Below, in pieces: positions 7,553-30,446 of a DNA stretch of 37,870 nucleotides (within the stretch, counting starts at the first letter, position 1; each line of letters begins with the position of its first letter). A program made the position numbers and the translations under genes. This stretch comes from Selenomonas bovis DSM 23594. GTDB taxonomy: Bacteria > Bacillota > Negativicutes > Selenomonadales > Selenomonadaceae. The notes under the pieces are model-generated. The model saw only the letters and a program-made list of their open reading frames with translations. It ran no database searches and was not told the DNA's origin. Where the stretch lies: positions 1 through 37,870 of the forward strand of contig NZ_KB908393.1 of assembly GCF_000381005.1 (NCBI RefSeq), read 5' to 3'.

Positions 7553-8872
7553 TTATCGCCGACTCGCCGCGACGGCGGCGAAGGCTTTGCCCGCGGCCTC
7601 GATCGTGCGGTCGATGTCTTCGTCGGTGTGCGCGCCGCTCATGAAGAGCGTCTCGAACTGGCTCGGCGCGAGGTAGATGCCCTGCTCGAGCATGGACTTG
7701 AACCAGACCTTGAACGCTTCCTGGTCGGAGGCGCAGGAGTCGTCGAAGTTCCAGACCTCGTGTTCGTTGAAAAAGATGCCGAACATGCTGCCCGCCTGGT
7801 GTGCCTGGATGGCGACGCCGGCCTTTTTCGCCTGCTCCTGCCAGCCGAGCAGGAGTTTTTTCGTCTTGAGCGTGAGCATGCGGCTGTAATCCGGCTCGCC
7901 CGGCTCCGGCTCAGCGGTGATAATTTTCAGCGTCTCGACGCCCGCCGTCATGGCGAGCGGATTGCCGGAGAGCGTGCCTGCCTGATAGACGGGGCCAGAC
8001 GGAGAGATCTCCTGCATGATGTCGCGGCGTCCGCCGTAGGCCGCGACGGGCAGGCCGCCGCCGATGATCTTGCCGAGGCAGGTGAGGTCCGGCGTGATGC
8101 CGTAGGCGGCCTGCGCGCCACCGAGGGAGGCGCGGAAACCGCACATGACCTCGTCGAAGATGAGCAGAGCGCCGTGCGCTGCCGTGAGCTCGCGCAGCTT
8201 GCGCAGATAGCCCTGCTTCGGCGGCACGCAGCCCATGTTGCCCGCGACAGGCTCGACGATGACGGCGGCGATCTCGTCGCCCATCTCGTCCATGACCTTT
8301 TCGATGGCCGCAGCGTCATTGTACGGCACGGTGACAGTGTCCTTCGCCGTGCCCTTCGTGACGCCCGGCGAGCTCGGCACGCCGAACGTCGCCATGCCGC
8401 TGCCGGCACTCACGAGCAGGCTGTCGCTGTGGCCGTGGTAGCAGCCGATGAACTTGACGATTTTCTCACGGCCCGTGTAGCCGCGCGCGAGGCGCAGCGC
8501 GCTCATCGTCGCCTCGGTGCCGGAGTTGACCATGCGGATGAGCTCGATGGAGGGATAGACCTGCTGCACGAGCTTCGCGAGCTCGGACTCGATGACGGTC
8601 GGTGCGCCGTAGCTCGTACCGCGCGTCACGGCCTCCTGCAGCGCCTTGACGACATTCGGATGGGCATGGCCGACGACCATCGGCCCCCAGGAGCCGACGT
8701 AGTCGATGTATTCGTTGCCGTCGATGTCGAAGATACGGTCGCCCTCAGCACGCGCGATGAACGGCGGGTTGCAGTCAACATTCGCGTAGGAGCGCACGGG
8801 GCTGTTGACGCCGCCCGGCATGAGCTGCTTGGCCTCCTCGAAGGCCGCGAGGGATTTTTCCAAATGAAGCAT
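7553..8872 (-). CDS. hemL: Glutamate-1-semialdehyde 2,1-aminomutase
   Basis: 439 residues. This PLP enzyme converts glutamate-1-semialdehyde to 5-aminolevulinate, the last step of the C5 route that HemA begins. [10 protein letters not shown] near the start, [11 protein letters not shown] and the PLP-lysine motif [10 protein letters not shown] (K268) are all present, and the length is normal. The start at 8872 follows GGGAGGAATCAGT; the longer in-frame start lies inside the operator region. It is separated from the other heme genes by a divergent regulator-like gene and has its own promoter within 8888-8945, so ALA supply could be controlled apart from the sirC-hemA-hemC-cobA/hemD-hemB operon. 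A hairpin terminator follows. Confidence 0.97.
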
Positions 8873-8887
8873 ACTGATTCCTCCCAA

Positions 8888-8945
8888 GTTATTGACATAT
8901 GTCATGAATTATCGTATGATGCAGTTAATGACATATGTCAATAAC
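8888..8945. promoter_or_regulatory. Divergent hemL / DUF134-NifX promoters with paired operators
   Basis: Two 18-bp arms in inverted orientation, GTTATTGACATATGTCAT (8888-8905) and ATGACATATGTCAATAAC (8928-8945), each contain the 12-bp palindrome TGACATATGTCA, with centres 36 bp apart. Plus strand: TTGACA (8892-8897), 17 bp, TATGAT (8915-8920). Minus strand: TTGACA (8941-8936), 19 bp, TACGAT (8916-8911). Each palindrome therefore covers the -35 of one promoter and the expected start point of the other. A single dimeric repressor could close both. The adjacent DUF134 helix-turn-helix protein is the obvious candidate, by inference. Confidence 0.8.
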
Positions 8946-8968
8946 TGTTATGTAAAAGGGGTATTCCT

Positions 8969-9694
8969 ATGGCAAGACCATGCAAGAAGCGCCGCATCTG
9001 CCAGTTGCCGCGCTGCACCGCGTTCCGCCCGCAGGGCACATCCGAGCGTCCGACCGTCCGTCTCACGCTCGAGGAGTTCGAGTGCCTGCGCCTTATGGAT
9101 TACGAGGGGCTGACGCAGGCGGCTTGCGCGGCGCAGCTCGGCGTCGCGCGCACGACGGCGCAGGCGCTCTACCAATCGGCGCGCGTGCGGCTCACCGCGG
9201 CGCTCGTCGAGGGACGGCCGCTCGTCATCGAGGGCGGCAGCTATGAGCTCTGCCCGTGCACGAGCGCGGCTTCCTGCGCGCCTGCCTTTTGCCCCAAGAG
9301 ACAGAAAGGAGTCTTTCCCATGAAAATCGGCATTCCTTACGATGAAAGCACGCAGCAGATCTTCCAGCATTTCGGCAAGACCGCGGCGTTCAAGATCTAT
9401 ACGGTCGCGGACGGCGCCGTGCAGTCGAGCGAGGTCGTGACGACCGGCGGCCAGCTGCACGAGGGCGCGGCCCAGCTGCTCGCAACGCACGGCGTCGATA
9501 CCGTCATCTGCGGCGGCGTCGGCGGCGGCATGCAGATGGCGCTCACGCAGGCGGGCATCCGCTTCTATAGCGGCGTGCAGGGCGCGGCGGACGCTGCCGC
9601 AGAGGCTCTGCTCGCCGGGAACCTCGCCTACGATCCCGCGGCGCGCGGCTGCCAGCACCACCATGAGCACGGCTGCGGACACGCGCACGCGTGA
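8969..9694 (+). CDS. DUF134 helix-turn-helix / NifX-like fusion protein
   Basis: 241 residues. Residues 1-92 match the DUF134 (UPF0251) family: MARPCKKRRICQLP at the start and a helix-turn-helix around 33-75 (TLEEFECLRLMDYEGLTQ...LGVARTT). A Cys cluster follows (C95, C97, C103, C108). Residues 118-227 form a NifX/NifB-type cluster-binding domain (MKIGIPYDE, then ICGGVGGGMQMAL), and the tail is His/Cys-rich (HHHEHGCGHAHA), suited to metal. It is probably a regulator sensing iron, an Fe-S cluster or a related ligand, and may act on the palindromes beside it. AAAGGGG precedes the ATG by 7 nt. An internal AAAGGAG and ATG at 9320 could yield a separate NifX-like protein. A strong terminator follows. 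Confidence 0.9.
   Translation: MARPCKKRRICQLPRCTAFRPQGTSERPTVRLTLEEFECLRLMDYEGLTQAACAAQLGVARTTAQALYQSARVRLTAALVEGRPLVIEGGSYELCPCTSAASCAPAFCPKRQKGVFPMKIGIPYDESTQQIFQHFGKTAAFKIYTVADGAVQSSEVVTTGGQLHEGAAQLLATHGVDTVICGGVGGGMQMALTQAGIRFYSGVQGAADAAAEALLAGNLAYDPAARGCQHHHEHGCGHAHA
9305..9322 (+). promoter_or_regulatory. Internal ribosome binding site before the NifX domain
   Basis: AAAGGAG (9305-9311) stands 8 nt before an in-frame ATG (9320-9322, Met118) that begins the NifX-like domain. The spacing is ideal, and the site lies exactly at the domain boundary. A second product of 124 residues is plausible. Confidence 0.6.
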
Positions 9695-9803
9695 GCGGCG
9701 GGCGCGCGCATGACGCGGCCGCACGGCGGATTCCCTGCGGCGCCGCGCCCTCGTCAGAGGAACGACCAACGCGCCGCGCGGGCTGCTGCATCGCGTACAT
9801 AGG

Positions 9804-9841
9804 AAAGGGGATTGCGCCCAGAGAGCGCAATCCTCTTTTTC
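9804..9841 (+). terminator. Terminator of the DUF134-NifX gene
   Basis: GGATTGCGC (9809-9817) pairs with GCGCAATCC (9825-9833), extendable by AAAGG with TCTTT to about 14 bp. It is followed on the plus strand by TCTTTTTCTTTTTC. hemB ends on the opposite strand 13-50 nt away, but the minus-strand tail lacks T. Confidence 0.85.
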
Positions 9842-9853
9842 TTTTTCTTTACC

Positions 9854-12407
<2,554 letters not shown>

Positions 12408-12476
12408 GCGCAATCTCCTTTTTATCTCAATCACAGCGCCCCGCAAGCCGGACGCCTCCGCTTCCTTTTTTTGGAA

Positions 12477-13418
12477 TCACTGCCGGTCGAGCAGCAGGCC
12501 GAGCTCATGCAGGACATCGAGCCCGCCCGCCGCAAGCAGCTGGTCGGCAAGCTCCGTGCCGAGCGCCGCCGCGTCCGCTGCCGCGCCCTCGAGACGGCTT
12601 CGGTAGAGCCGCCTGCCGTCGAGCGAGGCGATGACTGCCTCGACCGCGATGCCCGCCGCCGCAGGCTGCGCGTAGACGCCGACGGGCACCTGGCAGCCGC
12701 CCTCGACGCGCGCGAGAAAAGCCCGCTCCGCGCGCGCGCAGGCCGTCGTGCCCGCATCGGCGAGGAACGCGACGCGCTCCCGCACCGCCGCGTCCGCCGC
12801 GCGCGTCTCGATGGCGAGCGCGCCCTGGCCGACGGCCGGCAGCAGGAGCTGCTGCGGCAGGACCTCGCGGATGCGCTCCGCAAAGCCGAGCCGCTTCAGG
12901 CCCGCGACGGCGAGCACGGCGGCGTCATATTCGCCCGCATCGAGCTTCGCGAGGCGCGTGTTCACGTTGCCGCGCAGGTCGCGGATCGTGAGGTCGGAGC
13001 GCGCGTGCAGGAGCTGCGCGCGGCGGCGCAGGCTCGACGTGCCAATGGCGGCGCCCGCGGGCAGCGCCGCGAGCGACGCGTAGCGGTTGCTCACGAAGGC
13101 GTCGCCCGGGTCGGCGCGCTCCGTGATGGCCGCGATGGCGAGTCCCTCGGGAACCTCCGTCGGCATATCCTTCAGGCTGTGCACGGCGAGGTCGATCTCG
13201 CCTGCGAGCATCGCCTGCTCGAGCTCCTTGGTGAAGAGCCCCTTGCCGCCGATCTTCGCGAGCGGCGCGTCGAGGATCTTGTCGCCCTTCGTCGTCATGA
13301 GACGTTTCTCGACGGTGAGCTCGGGGTACGCCTCGCGCAGGCGCGCCGCGACGTAGTCCGCCTGCCAGAGCGCAAGCTTACTGCTCCTCGTGCCGATAAT
13401 GATGGTGTCGCATTTCAC
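12477..13418 (-). CDS. hemC: Hydroxymethylbilane synthase (porphobilinogen deaminase)
   Basis: 313 residues. It polymerises four porphobilinogens on a dipyrromethane cofactor. IGTRSSKLALWQ, HSLKDMP, GTSSLRRRAQL and RGNVNTRL are present, and the cofactor cysteine is C242 in VEGGCQVPVG. It starts with GTG at 13418 inside the end of hemA (41-bp overlap), with GGGGGAACGGGAACAA upstream, so translation is probably coupled to hemA. Length is normal. Confidence 0.96.
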   Translation of the reverse strand: MKCDTIIIGTRSSKLALWQADYVAARLREAYPELTVEKRLMTTKGDKILDAPLAKIGGKGLFTKELEQAMLAGEIDLAVHSLKDMPTEVPEGLAIAAITERADPGDAFVSNRYASLAALPAGAAIGTSSLRRRAQLLHARSDLTIRDLRGNVNTRLAKLDAGEYDAAVLAVAGLKRLGFAERIREVLPQQLLLPAVGQGALAIETRAADAAVRERVAFLADAGTTACARAERAFLARVEGGCQVPVGVYAQPAAAGIAVEAVIASLDGRRLYRSRLEGAAADAAALGTELADQLLAAGGLDVLHELGLLLDRQ

Positions 13419-14697
13419 TTGTTCCCGTTCCCCCTAACGTATCGAGCTTGAAGAGCGCGCGCATCGCGTCGATGTAGAACTGCTCGTGCTCCGTGCCCGC
13501 GGATTTTCTCAGCTTGATCATGGGCATGCGCAGGATCTTGCGCACGATCATCTGCGTCATGTGGTCGATATGACGCCAGTGCTCCTTGTCGAGCTCGCCG
13601 ATCTTCGAGTGCCAGCGCCGCATCTCGCGCTCGCGGATGCGCTCGCAGCGATCGGAGAGCAGCGCCATGAGCGGGCGCAGCGAGAGATAGCGGAACCGGT
13701 CCTCGAGGGAGGCGACCTCCTCCTCGATGATGGCGTCCGCCGCCTTGGCCTCCTCGCGCCGCTCCGCCCGGTGCTCGTCGACGACGGCCTCGAGCGCATC
13801 GATGTTGTAGAGCGTCACGCCACGGATCTCACTGACCTCAGGGTCGACGTCACGCGGCACGGCGATGTCGATGAAGAAGACCGGCCGCCCGCGCCGCTTC
13901 GTCATGAACTGCTGCGTCTCCCACGCCTTGACGACGTAGTGCGGCGCGCCCGTCGAGGTCACGATGACATCGGCGTCGAGCGAGTGGCGCAGCGCCCCCT
14001 CGAAGGGGATCGCCTCGCCGCCAAAGCGCGCGGCGAGCTCTGCAGCGCGCTCCATGTGCCTGTTCGCGACATAGATGAGGGAGATGCCGTGCGCGACGAG
14101 ATGCTGCGCCGTGAGCTCCGCCATCTTGCCCGCGCCGAAAATCAGCGCGTGGCGTCCCTCGAGGCCGCCGAGCTTCTCGCTCGCGAGCTCGACGGCGGCG
14201 TAGCTCACCGACACCGAGTTGTACTGGATGCGCGTCTCCGCACGCACGCGCTTGCCCGTCTTGATCGCGCGGTGCATGAGCGTGTTGAGCACGGTGCTCG
14301 TCGCGCTCGCCTCGCGCGCGAGCGCGTAGGCCTCCTTGACCTGCGAGAGAATCTGTCCCTCGCCGAGCACGAGAGAGTCGAGGCTCGCGGCGACGCGGAA
14401 CAGATGGCGGACGCAGTCCTCATCCAGATAGGTGTAGAGATATGCGTCGATGTCCTCCTCGTTGCCCGCGAGGTCGAAAAAGAACTGCTTGAGCGACGCA
14501 AGGTCGTCCGCCGCCGACTCGACGACGGCGTAGATCTCGCTGCGGTTGCAGGTCGAGAGCACGACGGCCTCGTTCACGCCGTCGTAGTCGCCGAGGTTCG
14601 CGAGCCCCTGCCGCACGGCGCTCTTGGGAATCGCGAACTGCTCGCGCACCGCGACGGGCGCCGTCTTATGATTCAGTCCGAAACAAATGAGCTGCAT
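13378..14697 (-). CDS. hemA: Glutamyl-tRNA reductase
   Basis: 439 residues. It reduces glutamyl-tRNA(Glu) to glutamate-1-semialdehyde, the committed step of the C5 pathway. GLNHKTAPVAVRE opens the protein, the catalytic Cys is C50 in STCNRSEIY, and LGEGQILSQVK, the NADPH-binding GAGKMAEL and the C-terminal dimerisation helices follow. It overlaps sirC at its start (32 bp) and hemC at its end (41 bp). The last 16 residues form a His-rich tail (MRHHHYRHEEQ) that exists only because of the hemC overlap. Confidence 0.97.
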   Translation of the reverse strand: MQLICFGLNHKTAPVAVREQFAIPKSAVRQGLANLGDYDGVNEAVVLSTCNRSEIYAVVESAADDLASLKQFFFDLAGNEEDIDAYLYTYLDEDCVRHLFRVAASLDSLVLGEGQILSQVKEAYALAREASATSTVLNTLMHRAIKTGKRVRAETRIQYNSVSVSYAAVELASEKLGGLEGRHALIFGAGKMAELTAQHLVAHGISLIYVANRHMERAAELAARFGGEAIPFEGALRHSLDADVIVTSTGAPHYVVKAWETQQFMTKRRGRPVFFIDIAVPRDVDPEVSEIRGVTLYNIDALEAVVDEHRAERREEAKAADAIIEEEVASLEDRFRYLSLRPLMALLSDRCERIREREMRRWHSKIGELDKEHWRHIDHMTQMIVRKILRMPMIKLRKSAGTEHEQFYIDAMRALFKLDTLGGTGTSEMRHHHYRHEEQ

Positions 14698-15307
14698 GTC
14701 TGATTCTTTCCTCCGCTTCCTCGCTGCGTCCCTGCCGCACCATGTCCAGGATCTCCGCGCTCATGGCGCGCCGCCAGAACGCCTCCCGCGCACGCGCTGT
14801 GCCCGTCTCCGCCTTGAGCTCCCGCCGCACGGCCGCGAGGCGCTCGAGCCAGTCGCCGAGCGCCTCGGGGTAGAGCGTCTCGAGCTGGGCGCGGATGGCG
14901 CGCGAGAGCGCGGGCGAAAGGCCGTCCGTCGATACCGTGAGCAGGAGCCGTCCGCGCGCGAGGCTCGCCGGAACCGTGAAGTCCGAGAGCTCCGGCTGCG
15001 CGGGCGCGTTGACGAGCACGCCGCGCGCCTTCGCTGCCCGCGCCGCCGCCTCGTTCGCCGCGCGGTCGTCCGTCGCGCAGACGACGAGGAACATGCCCGC
15101 AAGCATCGTCTCCTCGTAGCAGCGCGCGCGCCAGCACAGGCGTCCCGCGGCCGCGAGATCCGCGAGCTCCTCCGTGAGGCGCGGCGCGGCGACCGTCACG
15201 GCCGCCTCCGCGCGCAGCAGCGTGCGCGCCTTGCGCAGCGCCACGGGGCCGCCGCCCAGTACGAGGCACGGCCGCCCCTTCATCTCGAGATTCATCGCGT
15301 ATTTCAT
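14666..15307 (-). CDS. sirC: Precorrin-2 dehydrogenase / sirohydrochlorin ferrochelatase family protein
   Basis: 213 residues from MKYAMNLEM (ATG at 15307, GCGGAGG upstream). The N-terminal NAD-binding fold is clear (CLVLGGGPVALRKARTLL, then VCATDD), followed by the dimerisation and helical domains of the Met8/SirC/CysG-N family (VSTDGLSPALSRAIR). It oxidises precorrin-2 to sirohydrochlorin; some members also insert iron, and the sequence alone does not settle which. It is the first gene of the tetrapyrrole operon, 48 nt after the expected start point. Its end overlaps hemA by 32 bp. Confidence 0.92.
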   Translation of the reverse strand: MKYAMNLEMKGRPCLVLGGGPVALRKARTLLRAEAAVTVAAPRLTEELADLAAAGRLCWRARCYEETMLAGMFLVVCATDDRAANEAAARAAKARGVLVNAPAQPELSDFTVPASLARGRLLLTVSTDGLSPALSRAIRAQLETLYPEALGDWLERLAAVRRELKAETGTARAREAFWRRAMSAEILDMVRQGRSEEAEERIRHAAHLFRTES

Positions 15308-15627
15308 ACCAGCCTCCGCAAACATGAACGGCATTCGCTATTCGAGTGATTACTTTTGTCTATTGTACCGCGCAAAAATTCCGCCGTCAATCGTTCCCGC
15401 GCGCTTTGCCCGCCTTTTCCCGCGGCGGAGATGCGACGCCGCGCCATCGCCTCAGAGCTTTGCCGCGCTGGCAAAGCTATCCTCTTCTTTCGTCATTATG
15501 CTATAATGGAGGTATTTCACGGCGGCGCACGGGACGCGTGCCGGTGCGCCGCGTTTCCAGGAACGGACAGGCTGCCGCCCTCCGCCCCTGGTTTCGCAGA
15601 GAACATACCAGCAACCGAGGTACTATA
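15308..15627. promoter_or_regulatory. 320-bp divergent region between sirC and tex
   Basis: It contains the heme-operon promoter (15362-15390, minus), a perfect hairpin AGCTTTGCC/GGCAAAGCT with a 5-nt loop (15456-15478), and a TATAAT (15502-15507, plus) for tex with no good -35. The tex leader would be about 113 nt. No gene is seen; the in-frame extension upstream of tex lacks a ribosome site and normal composition. Confidence 0.55.
15362..15390 (-). promoter_or_regulatory. Promoter of the sirC-hemA-hemC-cobA/hemD-hemB operon
   Basis: On the minus strand TTGACG (15390-15385), a 17-bp spacer, and TACAAT (15367-15362). This is close to the sigma-70 consensus. The leader to the sirC ATG is about 48 nt, too short for a riboswitch. 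Confidence 0.8.
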
Positions 15628-26366: not shown

Positions 26367-27854
26367 TCACCAGCCCATGACCTTCGAGACGGCATTCTGC
26401 CAGCCGTCATAGAGCGCGCTGCGCTGCGCCTCATCCATCTGCGGCTCGTAGCGCACGCCCTCATGCCAGAGGGACTTGAGCTCGTCGATGTCCTTCCAGA
26501 TGCCCATGGCGAGTCCCGCGAGGTAGGCGGCGCCAAGCCCCGTCGTCTCCGTCGTATAGGCGCGGATGACCGGCATGTTGAGGATGTCCGCCTGGAACTG
26601 CATGAGCAGGTTGTTCTGCGCCGCACCGCCGTCCACCTTGAGCTGGGCAATCGGCGTCTTGACATCTGAGGTCAGCGCCTCATAGACATCGCGCACCTGA
26701 TAGGCGAGCGCCGCGAGCGCCGCGCGGATGATATGCGCGCGCTGCGTATCCTCCTTGAGCCCGATGATCATGCCTGAGGTCTTCGTGTCCCAGTACGGCG
26801 CGGAAAGCCCGCGGAACGACGGCACGAAATAAACGCCGCCCGTATCGGGCACGAGCTTCGCCACCCACTCAGAGTCCGGCATGGACTTCAGGATGCCGAG
26901 CCCGTGCTTGAGCCACTCGAGACTCGAGCCGGAGACGAGCATGCTGCCCTCGAGCGCATACGTCACATCGTCGCCGATGCCCCAGGCAATCGTCGTGATG
27001 AGACCGTTCTGCGAATGGACGATCTCCTTCCCCGTGTTCATGAGCAGGAACGAGCCCTCGCCGTAGGAGTTCTTCGCCTCGCCCTGGGTAAAACACGCCT
27101 GGCCGAAGAGATCCGCCTGCTGGTTGCCGATGCAGGCCGCGATCGGGATGGCGGCGCCGAAGCACGTCGCGTCCGTATAGCCGTAGAGATGACTCGACGG
27201 ATGCACCTCGGGCAGCATCGAGCGCGGGATGCGGAGATGGCGCAGAATCTCGGCATCCCAGCAGAGATGCTTGAGGTGAAAGAGCATCGTACGGGAGGCA
27301 TTCGAGTAATCCGTCGCAAAAATCTCACCGCCCGAGAGCTTCCACATGAGCCAGGTATCGATCGTGCCGAAGCAGAGCTCTCCCTTCTCCGCCATCTCCC
27401 GCGCGCCGAGCACGTTGTCGAGCAGCCAGCAGATCTTCGTGCCGGAAAAGTACGGGTTCAGCACGAGCGAGGTCTTCTGCCGGATCTCCTCCTGGTAGCC
27501 CTGCTCGCGCAGCTGCTCGCAGATCTGCTCCGTCTGCCGCGACTGCCAGCTGATGGCGGGATAGAGCGGCCGCCCTGTCTGCCGGTTCCAGATGACAGTC
27601 GTCTCACGCTGGTTCGTCACCGCAACGGCTGCGATCTCACGGCTGTCGATGGCCGCGAGCCGCATCGCCTCCCGCGCCGTCCAGAGCTGCGTGCTCCAGA
27701 TCTCCTCCGCATCCTGTTCGATCCATTCCGCATGCGGAGTGAAGGTGCTGATCTTCTTCTCCGCGTAGGAAATCATCTCTCCCCGGCGGTTGAAAATCAC
27801 TGAGCGGTTCTTGACGGTACCGGAATCCAGTGCCAGAATGTATTGTTTTTGCAT
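26367..27854 (-). CDS. Divergent glycerol kinase paralogue lacking the catalytic Asp
   Basis: 495 residues, collinear with the GlpK at 28923-30431. The FGGY fold is intact ([55 protein letters not shown]). Two key sites differ. The catalytic-base position, Asp244 in the neighbour ([10 protein letters not shown]), is Asn244 here (IGNQQADLFG), and the ATP phosphate loop reads DSGTVKNR instead of DAGTTSNR (T14 to V). The glycerol-contact motifs R-E and Y-F-S-G remain. By family knowledge the Asp is needed for phosphoryl transfer, so this may be a non-catalytic or regulatory kinase, or one with another substrate. The frame is complete with its own extended -10 promoter and terminator, so it is not an obvious pseudogene. 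Confidence 0.9.
   Translation of the reverse strand: MQKQYILALDSGTVKNRSVIFNRRGEMISYAEKKISTFTPHAEWIEQDAEEIWSTQLWTAREAMRLAAIDSREIAAVAVTNQRETTVIWNRQTGRPLYPAISWQSRQTEQICEQLREQGYQEEIRQKTSLVLNPYFSGTKICWLLDNVLGAREMAEKGELCFGTIDTWLMWKLSGGEIFATDYSNASRTMLFHLKHLCWDAEILRHLRIPRSMLPEVHPSSHLYGYTDATCFGAAIPIAACIGNQQADLFGQACFTQGEAKNSYGEGSFLLMNTGKEIVHSQNGLITTIAWGIGDDVTYALEGSMLVSGSSLEWLKHGLGILKSMPDSEWVAKLVPDTGGVYFVPSFRGLSAPYWDTKTSGMIIGLKEDTQRAHIIRAALAALAYQVRDVYEALTSDVKTPIAQLKVDGGAAQNNLLMQFQADILNMPVIRAYTTETTGLGAAYLAGLAMGIWKDIDELKSLWHEGVRYEPQMDEAQRSALYDGWQNAVSKVMGW

Positions 27855-28922: not shown

Positions 28923-30446
<1,524 letters not shown>

Follow-up and report, generated by a model that had tools for sequence, protein, structure and literature searches.

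The window, a 37,870-nucleotide stretch of the Selenomonas bovis DSM 23594 genome, carries hemL, encoding glutamate-1-semialdehyde 2,1-aminomutase, on the reverse strand at 7553–8872 (TIGR00713, 9.1e-187). The genes hemB, cobA-hemD, hemC, hemA and sirC, which complete the hem cluster, lie on the same strand at 9854–15334. Another aminomutase-like protein, with 40% identity to hemL, is also encoded in the host genome (L163, G000:C49:1213-2538). Elsewhere in the window, at 26367–27854 and 28923–30431, two glycerol-kinase-like frames were seen by eye around a GlpF-like one, near glpABC-like frames. A 979-bp segment (8873–9851) separates the hemL start codon from the end of hemB and comprises a probable palindromic operator, a DUF134-NifX gene and a terminator.

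The DUF134-NifX gene (8969–9694, forward strand) encodes 241 residues, consisting of a DUF134 domain with a helix-turn-helix (residues 2–93), a cysteine-rich linker, a NifX/orange-protein-like domain (residues 129–215) and a Cys/His tail. Both domain assignments are well above their cut-offs, with PF02001 (DUF134, also UPF0251, which we take to be COG1342) at 7.1e-23 and 81.5 bits against a gathering score of 27, and PF02579 (Nitro_FeMo-Co, the NifX-ORP family) at 1.8e-17 and 63.9 bits against 26.3. An intrinsic terminator is predicted 3′ of the gene (9802–9840, forward strand); on the opposite strand, hemB is followed by a terminator that is shorter and has a weaker run of Ts.

The sequence TGACATATGTCA is present exactly at 8893–8904 and 8929–8940, its only matches in the window at up to two mismatches; shuffled sequence gave a mean of 0.41 such matches, and seven of 100 shuffles had two or more. 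Compared with the form found elsewhere, both copies are 22-bp palindromes of the type RTTATTGACATATGTCAATAAY, with centres 36 bp apart. Copy 1 (GTTATTGACATATGTCATGAAT, 8888–8909) has two mismatches to this form, both outside the GACATATGTC core, and copy 2 (GTTAATGACATATGTCAATAAC, 8924–8945) has one. The first-pass annotation had placed two identical palindromes within 18-bp arms; the palindromes are as described, while the arms are longer, at 22 nt with 95% complementarity (8887–8908 and 8925–8946). An exact search of the 2.69 Mb host genome for the 13-mer TTGACATATGTCA gives no position beyond these two. This uniqueness, together with the phylum pair scan and the scrambled-palindrome control reported below, rules out local chance as the origin of the palindromes.

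Copy 1 holds the −35 element of a sigma-70 type promoter for the DUF134-NifX gene (TTGACA-17-TATGAT, 8892–8920, forward strand), and copy 2 lies over its expected start point. This promoter matches consensus at 11 of 12 positions and is the only one to pass a promoter scan of 8700–10000. In the direction of hemL the geometry is mirrored, with a TTGACA in copy 2 and copy 1 over the would-be start, and the start codon of hemL is 15 bp from copy 1. The −10 of this possible weak promoter (TTGACA-17-CATACG, 8913–8941, reverse strand) matches only three of six positions and the promoter fails the scan; an alternative GATAAT on the hemL side was judged by eye to be too far from the TTGACA, at 22 bp. 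The earlier description of interlocked divergent promoters is thus half right, in that the geometry and the rightward promoter are borne out and the leftward promoter is poor.

Recurrence and geometry of the probable operator at DUF134 genes

We define the class A operator as two 22-bp palindromes 32–46 bp apart, with a −10 box between them, upstream of a DUF134 gene with an AR-T recognition helix. The window has this layout, with a spacing of 36, TATGAT between the copies and the helix ARTTAQ. Scanned for as a DNA pattern, using no protein information, the pair matches in 36 of 398 genomes of the phylum and in none with the reversed control. Thirty of the 36 genomes were examined, and a DUF134 gene is present in 29 of the 30 pair-bearing loci, the window's included. 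At the thirtieth (L030), the pair precedes a DUF5320-like frame, recognised by eye, and a NifX gene. Within the genus, all seven genomes have a copy before DUF134 (a count that leaves out L016, a sub-cut-off match in G003), and five of the six congeners have both copies at up to three mismatches of 14. Twenty-nine further loci from the window's family (L047–L075) were searched at the same threshold, here without a control, and 27 have a site within 1 kb.

The pattern extends beyond the phylum sample. Among 80 named loci (the best 80 of at least 576 relatives), the operator is found within 1 kb upstream at up to six mismatches of 22 in 73, and the pair in 57. For 194 scrambled palindromes on the same loci, the corresponding means were 3.3 and 0.01, and the maxima 29 and 1. 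Of the seven loci that missed, four offer no more than 325 bp upstream, and at another (L232) the pair stands before DUF5320 and NifX genes downstream of DUF134. These best-matching loci are mostly from Clostridia and other Firmicutes, with others labelled Synergistaceae, Anaerolineaceae, Exilispira, Actinomycetota and Brocadia; many are metagenome assemblies, and the set favours the AR-T class because it was found with AR-T-type peptide patterns.

The exact 13-mer occurs in 53 of the 398 phylum genomes (12 matches for the reversed control) and DUF134 in 266, so co-occurrence alone is loose and much of the DUF134 family would use other or looser sites. Closeness to the full site is more informative. 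We examined 71 of the 72 distinct 13-mer sites (G171:C16 was left out), and 41 of the 46 with up to three mismatches to the 20-mer precede DUF134, NifX, DUF5320, Mrp or ferredoxin-ATPase genes, compared with four of the 18 with five or more mismatches. Two sites in L132, with four mismatches, were scored as far from such genes through an open-frame artefact and actually precede DUF134 (L033). The five close sites elsewhere comprise two before a Fur-type gene, one at a similar spot in one of those genomes (L139), one inside a gene in a genome without DUF134 (L123), and one before an unrelated gene (L136). A further four-mismatch site, before a gene that appears by eye to be cytochrome-like (L153), was taken as chance; that genome has no DUF134 match. 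The first-pass annotation had suggested a search upstream of DUF134 genes in other genomes and named lack of conservation there as grounds for refutation. The palindromes recur at this position in the phylum, and also in some records whose label names another phylum, so this check did not refute the proposal.

The promoter geometry recurs with the palindromes. Across 110 pairs, copy 1 contains a perfect TTGACA in 108, which is partly built in since this hexamer belongs to the palindrome, and a −10 matching at least five of six positions follows at 16–18 bp in 103. Copy 2 falls on the expected start. The palindrome could in principle be a mere promoter ornament, kept since TTGACA is the −35, and the built-in hexamer of copy 1 fits such a reading. 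Copy 2, however, has no promoter role and keeps CATATG at 98–100% and, on either side of it, G and C at 99% across the 92 AR-class pairs (which were chosen by similarity to the palindrome), and scrambled palindromes form practically no pairs, so we regard an ornament as extremely improbable. The copies are 32 to 46 bp apart over the 110 pairs, making a fixed helical phasing unlikely.

A protein on either copy would exclude polymerase, and from this we infer negative autoregulation. DUF134 might instead activate the promoter, or regulate it in both senses, as its helix-turn-helix may resemble sigma-70 region 4 (Z up to 7.4, within the range of common arrangements) and the sign of regulation cannot come from sequence alone. 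The promoters are near consensus, however, and the copies cover the −35 and the start, where a bound protein would block polymerase; activation therefore seems to us quite unlikely, and repression remains our preferred reading.

The DUF134 recognition helix and the likely binder

The type of operator follows the recognition helix of the adjoining DUF134 protein. With operator-fetched loci excluded, operator A is found at 74 of 90 genes with the AR-T helix and at one of 68 with SR[PQA]T[FY]; a Fisher value for this association overstates its significance because the genes are related by descent. The intermediate SR-TV group has operator A in 10 of 18. Neither operator type is present at 55 of the same 68 SR[PQA]T[FY] genes, and in the whole class (n = 70) the variant TTATGAACATATGTTCATAA is found in four, a hybrid in eight and neither in 56. 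These counts cover 500 bp upstream, which leaves some sites farther up uncounted; the whole-class counts also leave out two of 217 DUF134 genes, with less than 120 bp upstream. The variant stands at the SRPT-class genes of L283, L279 and L297, and hybrids of it with TTATTGACATA at those of L082, L086, L103 and L265. In one locus (L255, 1476–3378), two divergent DUF134 genes with SRPTFQ and SRTTVQ helices have several operator copies between them.

As the operator tracks the recognition helix, DUF134 is the likely binder of the palindromes. They could instead be bound, and the DUF134 operons controlled, by a different regulator such as a metalloregulator of the Fur family; the same palindrome precedes a Fur-type gene in family f65, and the host genome has two Fur genes. 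In that family, TTATTGACATATGTCAATAA and a second, GAACATATGTT-like copy stand before the Fur-type gene in L140, where it was confirmed by Pfam, and in L142, where it was assigned by likeness. In L139, a similar spot is without an intact Fur frame as judged by eye; in L141 (genome G235; genomes G259, G235 and G390 cover L139–L142), a single copy lies ahead of a DUF5320 gene. Four points argue against Fur as the binder: the covariation of operator type with the DUF134 helix; the presence of operators at DUF134 genes in many families; the two host Fur gene loci, which have no site within seven mismatches of 20; and the second copy in L140 and L142, which resembles the GAACATATGTTC type of SRPTF-class DUF134. 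The DUF134 genes of f65 (L079 and L087) belong to that class, with SRPTFF helices, and have no operator A. We give a binder other than DUF134 a low probability, about as low as activation. For the f65 sites before the Fur-type and DUF5320 genes, DUF134 could act in trans or there could be a second binder, and a link between DUF134 and Fur in metal homeostasis is possible in this family.

The DUF134 domain is modelled as a helix-turn-helix with high confidence (pLDDT 92.6). Domains of sigma-70 region 4 make up most of the top entries in its structural comparison, at scores that are not decisive; Foldseek on the helix-turn-helix gave E values no better than 0.05, and Pfam Sigma70_r4_2 matched the window protein at 5.5e-05, below its own cut-off. 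By sequence, the solved structures nearest to the DUF134 profile are DeoR-type helix-turn-helix proteins (7bhy and 8r7y, 7.7e-05), the first of them an operator-bound structure. This likeness covers about 38 residues, and these proteins have no NifX-type domain.

The C-terminal domain has the NifX/orange-protein fold, with a TM score by target of 0.89 to 2yx6 and 0.75 to the apo orange protein 2wfb. Structures with the NifX/NafY/ORP fold (2yx6, 1o13, 2wfb and 9ian) share this fold, and some also the sequence, but have no DUF134 domain, whereas the NifX domain of the window protein is fused to one. At least three cysteines directly follow the helix-turn-helix in all 96 stand-alone AR-class DUF134 proteins, compared with 12 of 26 fused ones, a low share that counts somewhat against the overall reading. 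In their place, all 15 fused proteins aligned have invariant His and Cys residues, situated in the NifX domain and the tail. On account of these cysteine clusters and invariant residues, a metal or an Fe-S-type cluster ligand is the likely signal for DUF134-NifX. The suggestion of such a signal, made from the window alone, therefore remains plausible given the fold, the cysteine clusters and the Fe-S carrier genes that keep company with DUF134.

Gene company and the proposed circuit

In the 80 best-matching named loci, NifX is present at 56, DUF5320 and MinD-type ferredoxin ATPases at 51 each, and Mrp at 34; the neighbour families were verified by Pfam on L212 and L133. These common neighbours, DUF5320, NifX, ferredoxin-ATPases and Mrp, make up the orange-protein set. 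Operator sites also occur apart from the DUF134 gene, before NifX (L117, L131, L138 and L143) and before Mrp (L133). In the window, one protein combines regulator and NifX domain, which reduces the module there to a single gene. Its operon contains no Mrp or ferredoxin-ATPase gene, as it runs into the terminator and then the convergent hemB. A Mrp-type gene elsewhere in the host genome has no site within seven mismatches of 20 in its locus, unlike the Mrp gene of the same-family relative in L133.

The closest described system is that of the Desulfovibrio vulgaris orange protein (ORP) complex, whose genes, as summarised in PMC6345978 and PMC3897727, are under sigma-54 and DVU2106. By the same summaries, one cluster there encodes an ORP-type protein, ferredoxin-motif proteins and a Mrp-type ATPase, and the regulator recognises palindromic sites and acts as a repressor at its own promoter, as we propose for DUF134. 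The systems differ in that an enhancer-binding protein, sigma-54 and IHF act in D. vulgaris, as outlined in those sources, and DUF134 would act on a sigma-70 type promoter, and in that the window has a single fused gene without ATPases. No operator, target or role for DUF134 was found in the open-access PMC literature searched, which was mostly abstracts and included PMC5886521, PMC10434189, PMC6345978 and PMC3897727; the operator is proposed here.

Taken together, we think it quite probable that the palindrome pair is the operator of the DUF134 protein, a portable regulator that would be self-repressing and probably sense a metal or cluster, with hemL possibly co-repressed as a side effect. 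A DUF134 dimer would bind each palindrome copy through its helix-turn-helix. Occupied copies would mask the −35 (copy 1) and the start site (copy 2), and the DUF134-NifX promoter would thereby be repressed by its own product. The NifX/orange-protein-like domain and the Cys/His clusters would sense a metal or an Fe-S-type cofactor and alter binding, and hemL, which is now read from behind the operator, may be repressed along with DUF134-NifX.

hemL and the differing location of the module

In all six congeners the gene order is hemC, cobA-hemD, hemB and hemL, with hemA visible in five and sirC in four, the others being cut off by the ends of contigs or of fetched sequence. In one of these genomes (G006; L171, 1618–2974), hemL is split into two overlapping frames, by a frameshift or an assembly error. 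No congener has an operator before hemL, at up to three mismatches of 14. In the sister species (L166, 3085–3706), an antitoxin-like and a Doc-like frame, recognised by eye, lie between hemB and hemL, and the hemB–hemL junction is perhaps an insertion-prone spot. The 979-bp segment of the window has no alignment in this sister species. There the DUF134 gene adjoins rpsB, and the host genome shows a junction of 120 bp at that position; gene, operator and terminator are thus found at different places in the two species, and the direction of any move would be a matter of inference. In the window species, hemL no longer directly follows hemB and is behind the operator instead.

The first-pass annotation had named ALA supply through hemL as the target of the regulator. 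A dedicated link, in which the DUF134 protein controls hemL on purpose and ties ALA supply to metal or cluster status, would account for the position of the copies (16–37 and 52–73 bp upstream of the hemL start codon) and for the leftward TTGACA, with copy 1 over the leftward start. The comparative evidence is against it. Among 249 loci, 229 of them with DUF134 and with flanks of about 0.05 to 3 kb, hem genes adjoin DUF134 only at the window's own locus (L009 and L036). The hemL gene of all six congeners stands behind hemB without an operator, one of them with the toxin-antitoxin-like pair between, and the segment is the one that is unaligned in the sister species. The hemL-side −10 is poorer than those on the same side in 84 of 110 pairs elsewhere, which match at four or five of six positions. 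We consider a purposeful heme link unlikely, and hemL is not supported as a dedicated target. From the gene arrangement, hemL may have acquired the operator by accident, and any repression of hemL is more likely to be an incidental effect than dedicated control.

The main part of the observation is sound and wider than first proposed, pointing to a recurrent putative operator of an uncharacterised domain family, with a heme part that appears local. A more far-reaching picture, which we offer as a conjecture with perhaps a modest chance of being right, is that DUF134 is a large undescribed transcription-factor family whose domain would act like sigma region 4, read an inverted −35 pair (TTGACATATGTCAA) and compete with sigma for the −35, its specificity coming from the AR-T or SRPT helix residues. 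With NifX/orange-protein domains, fused or co-expressed, it would close a regulatory loop around a heterometal or Fe-S carrier pool, and here a portable module would have captured hemL, such that heme-precursor supply would follow that pool. DUF134 is present in two thirds of the sampled phylum genomes (the 266 of 398 given above), and the operator, the covarying helix classes and the recurrent gene company make it a testable transcription-factor family. Together they also give a handle on the control of the Fe-S or heterometal carrier set in these bacteria.
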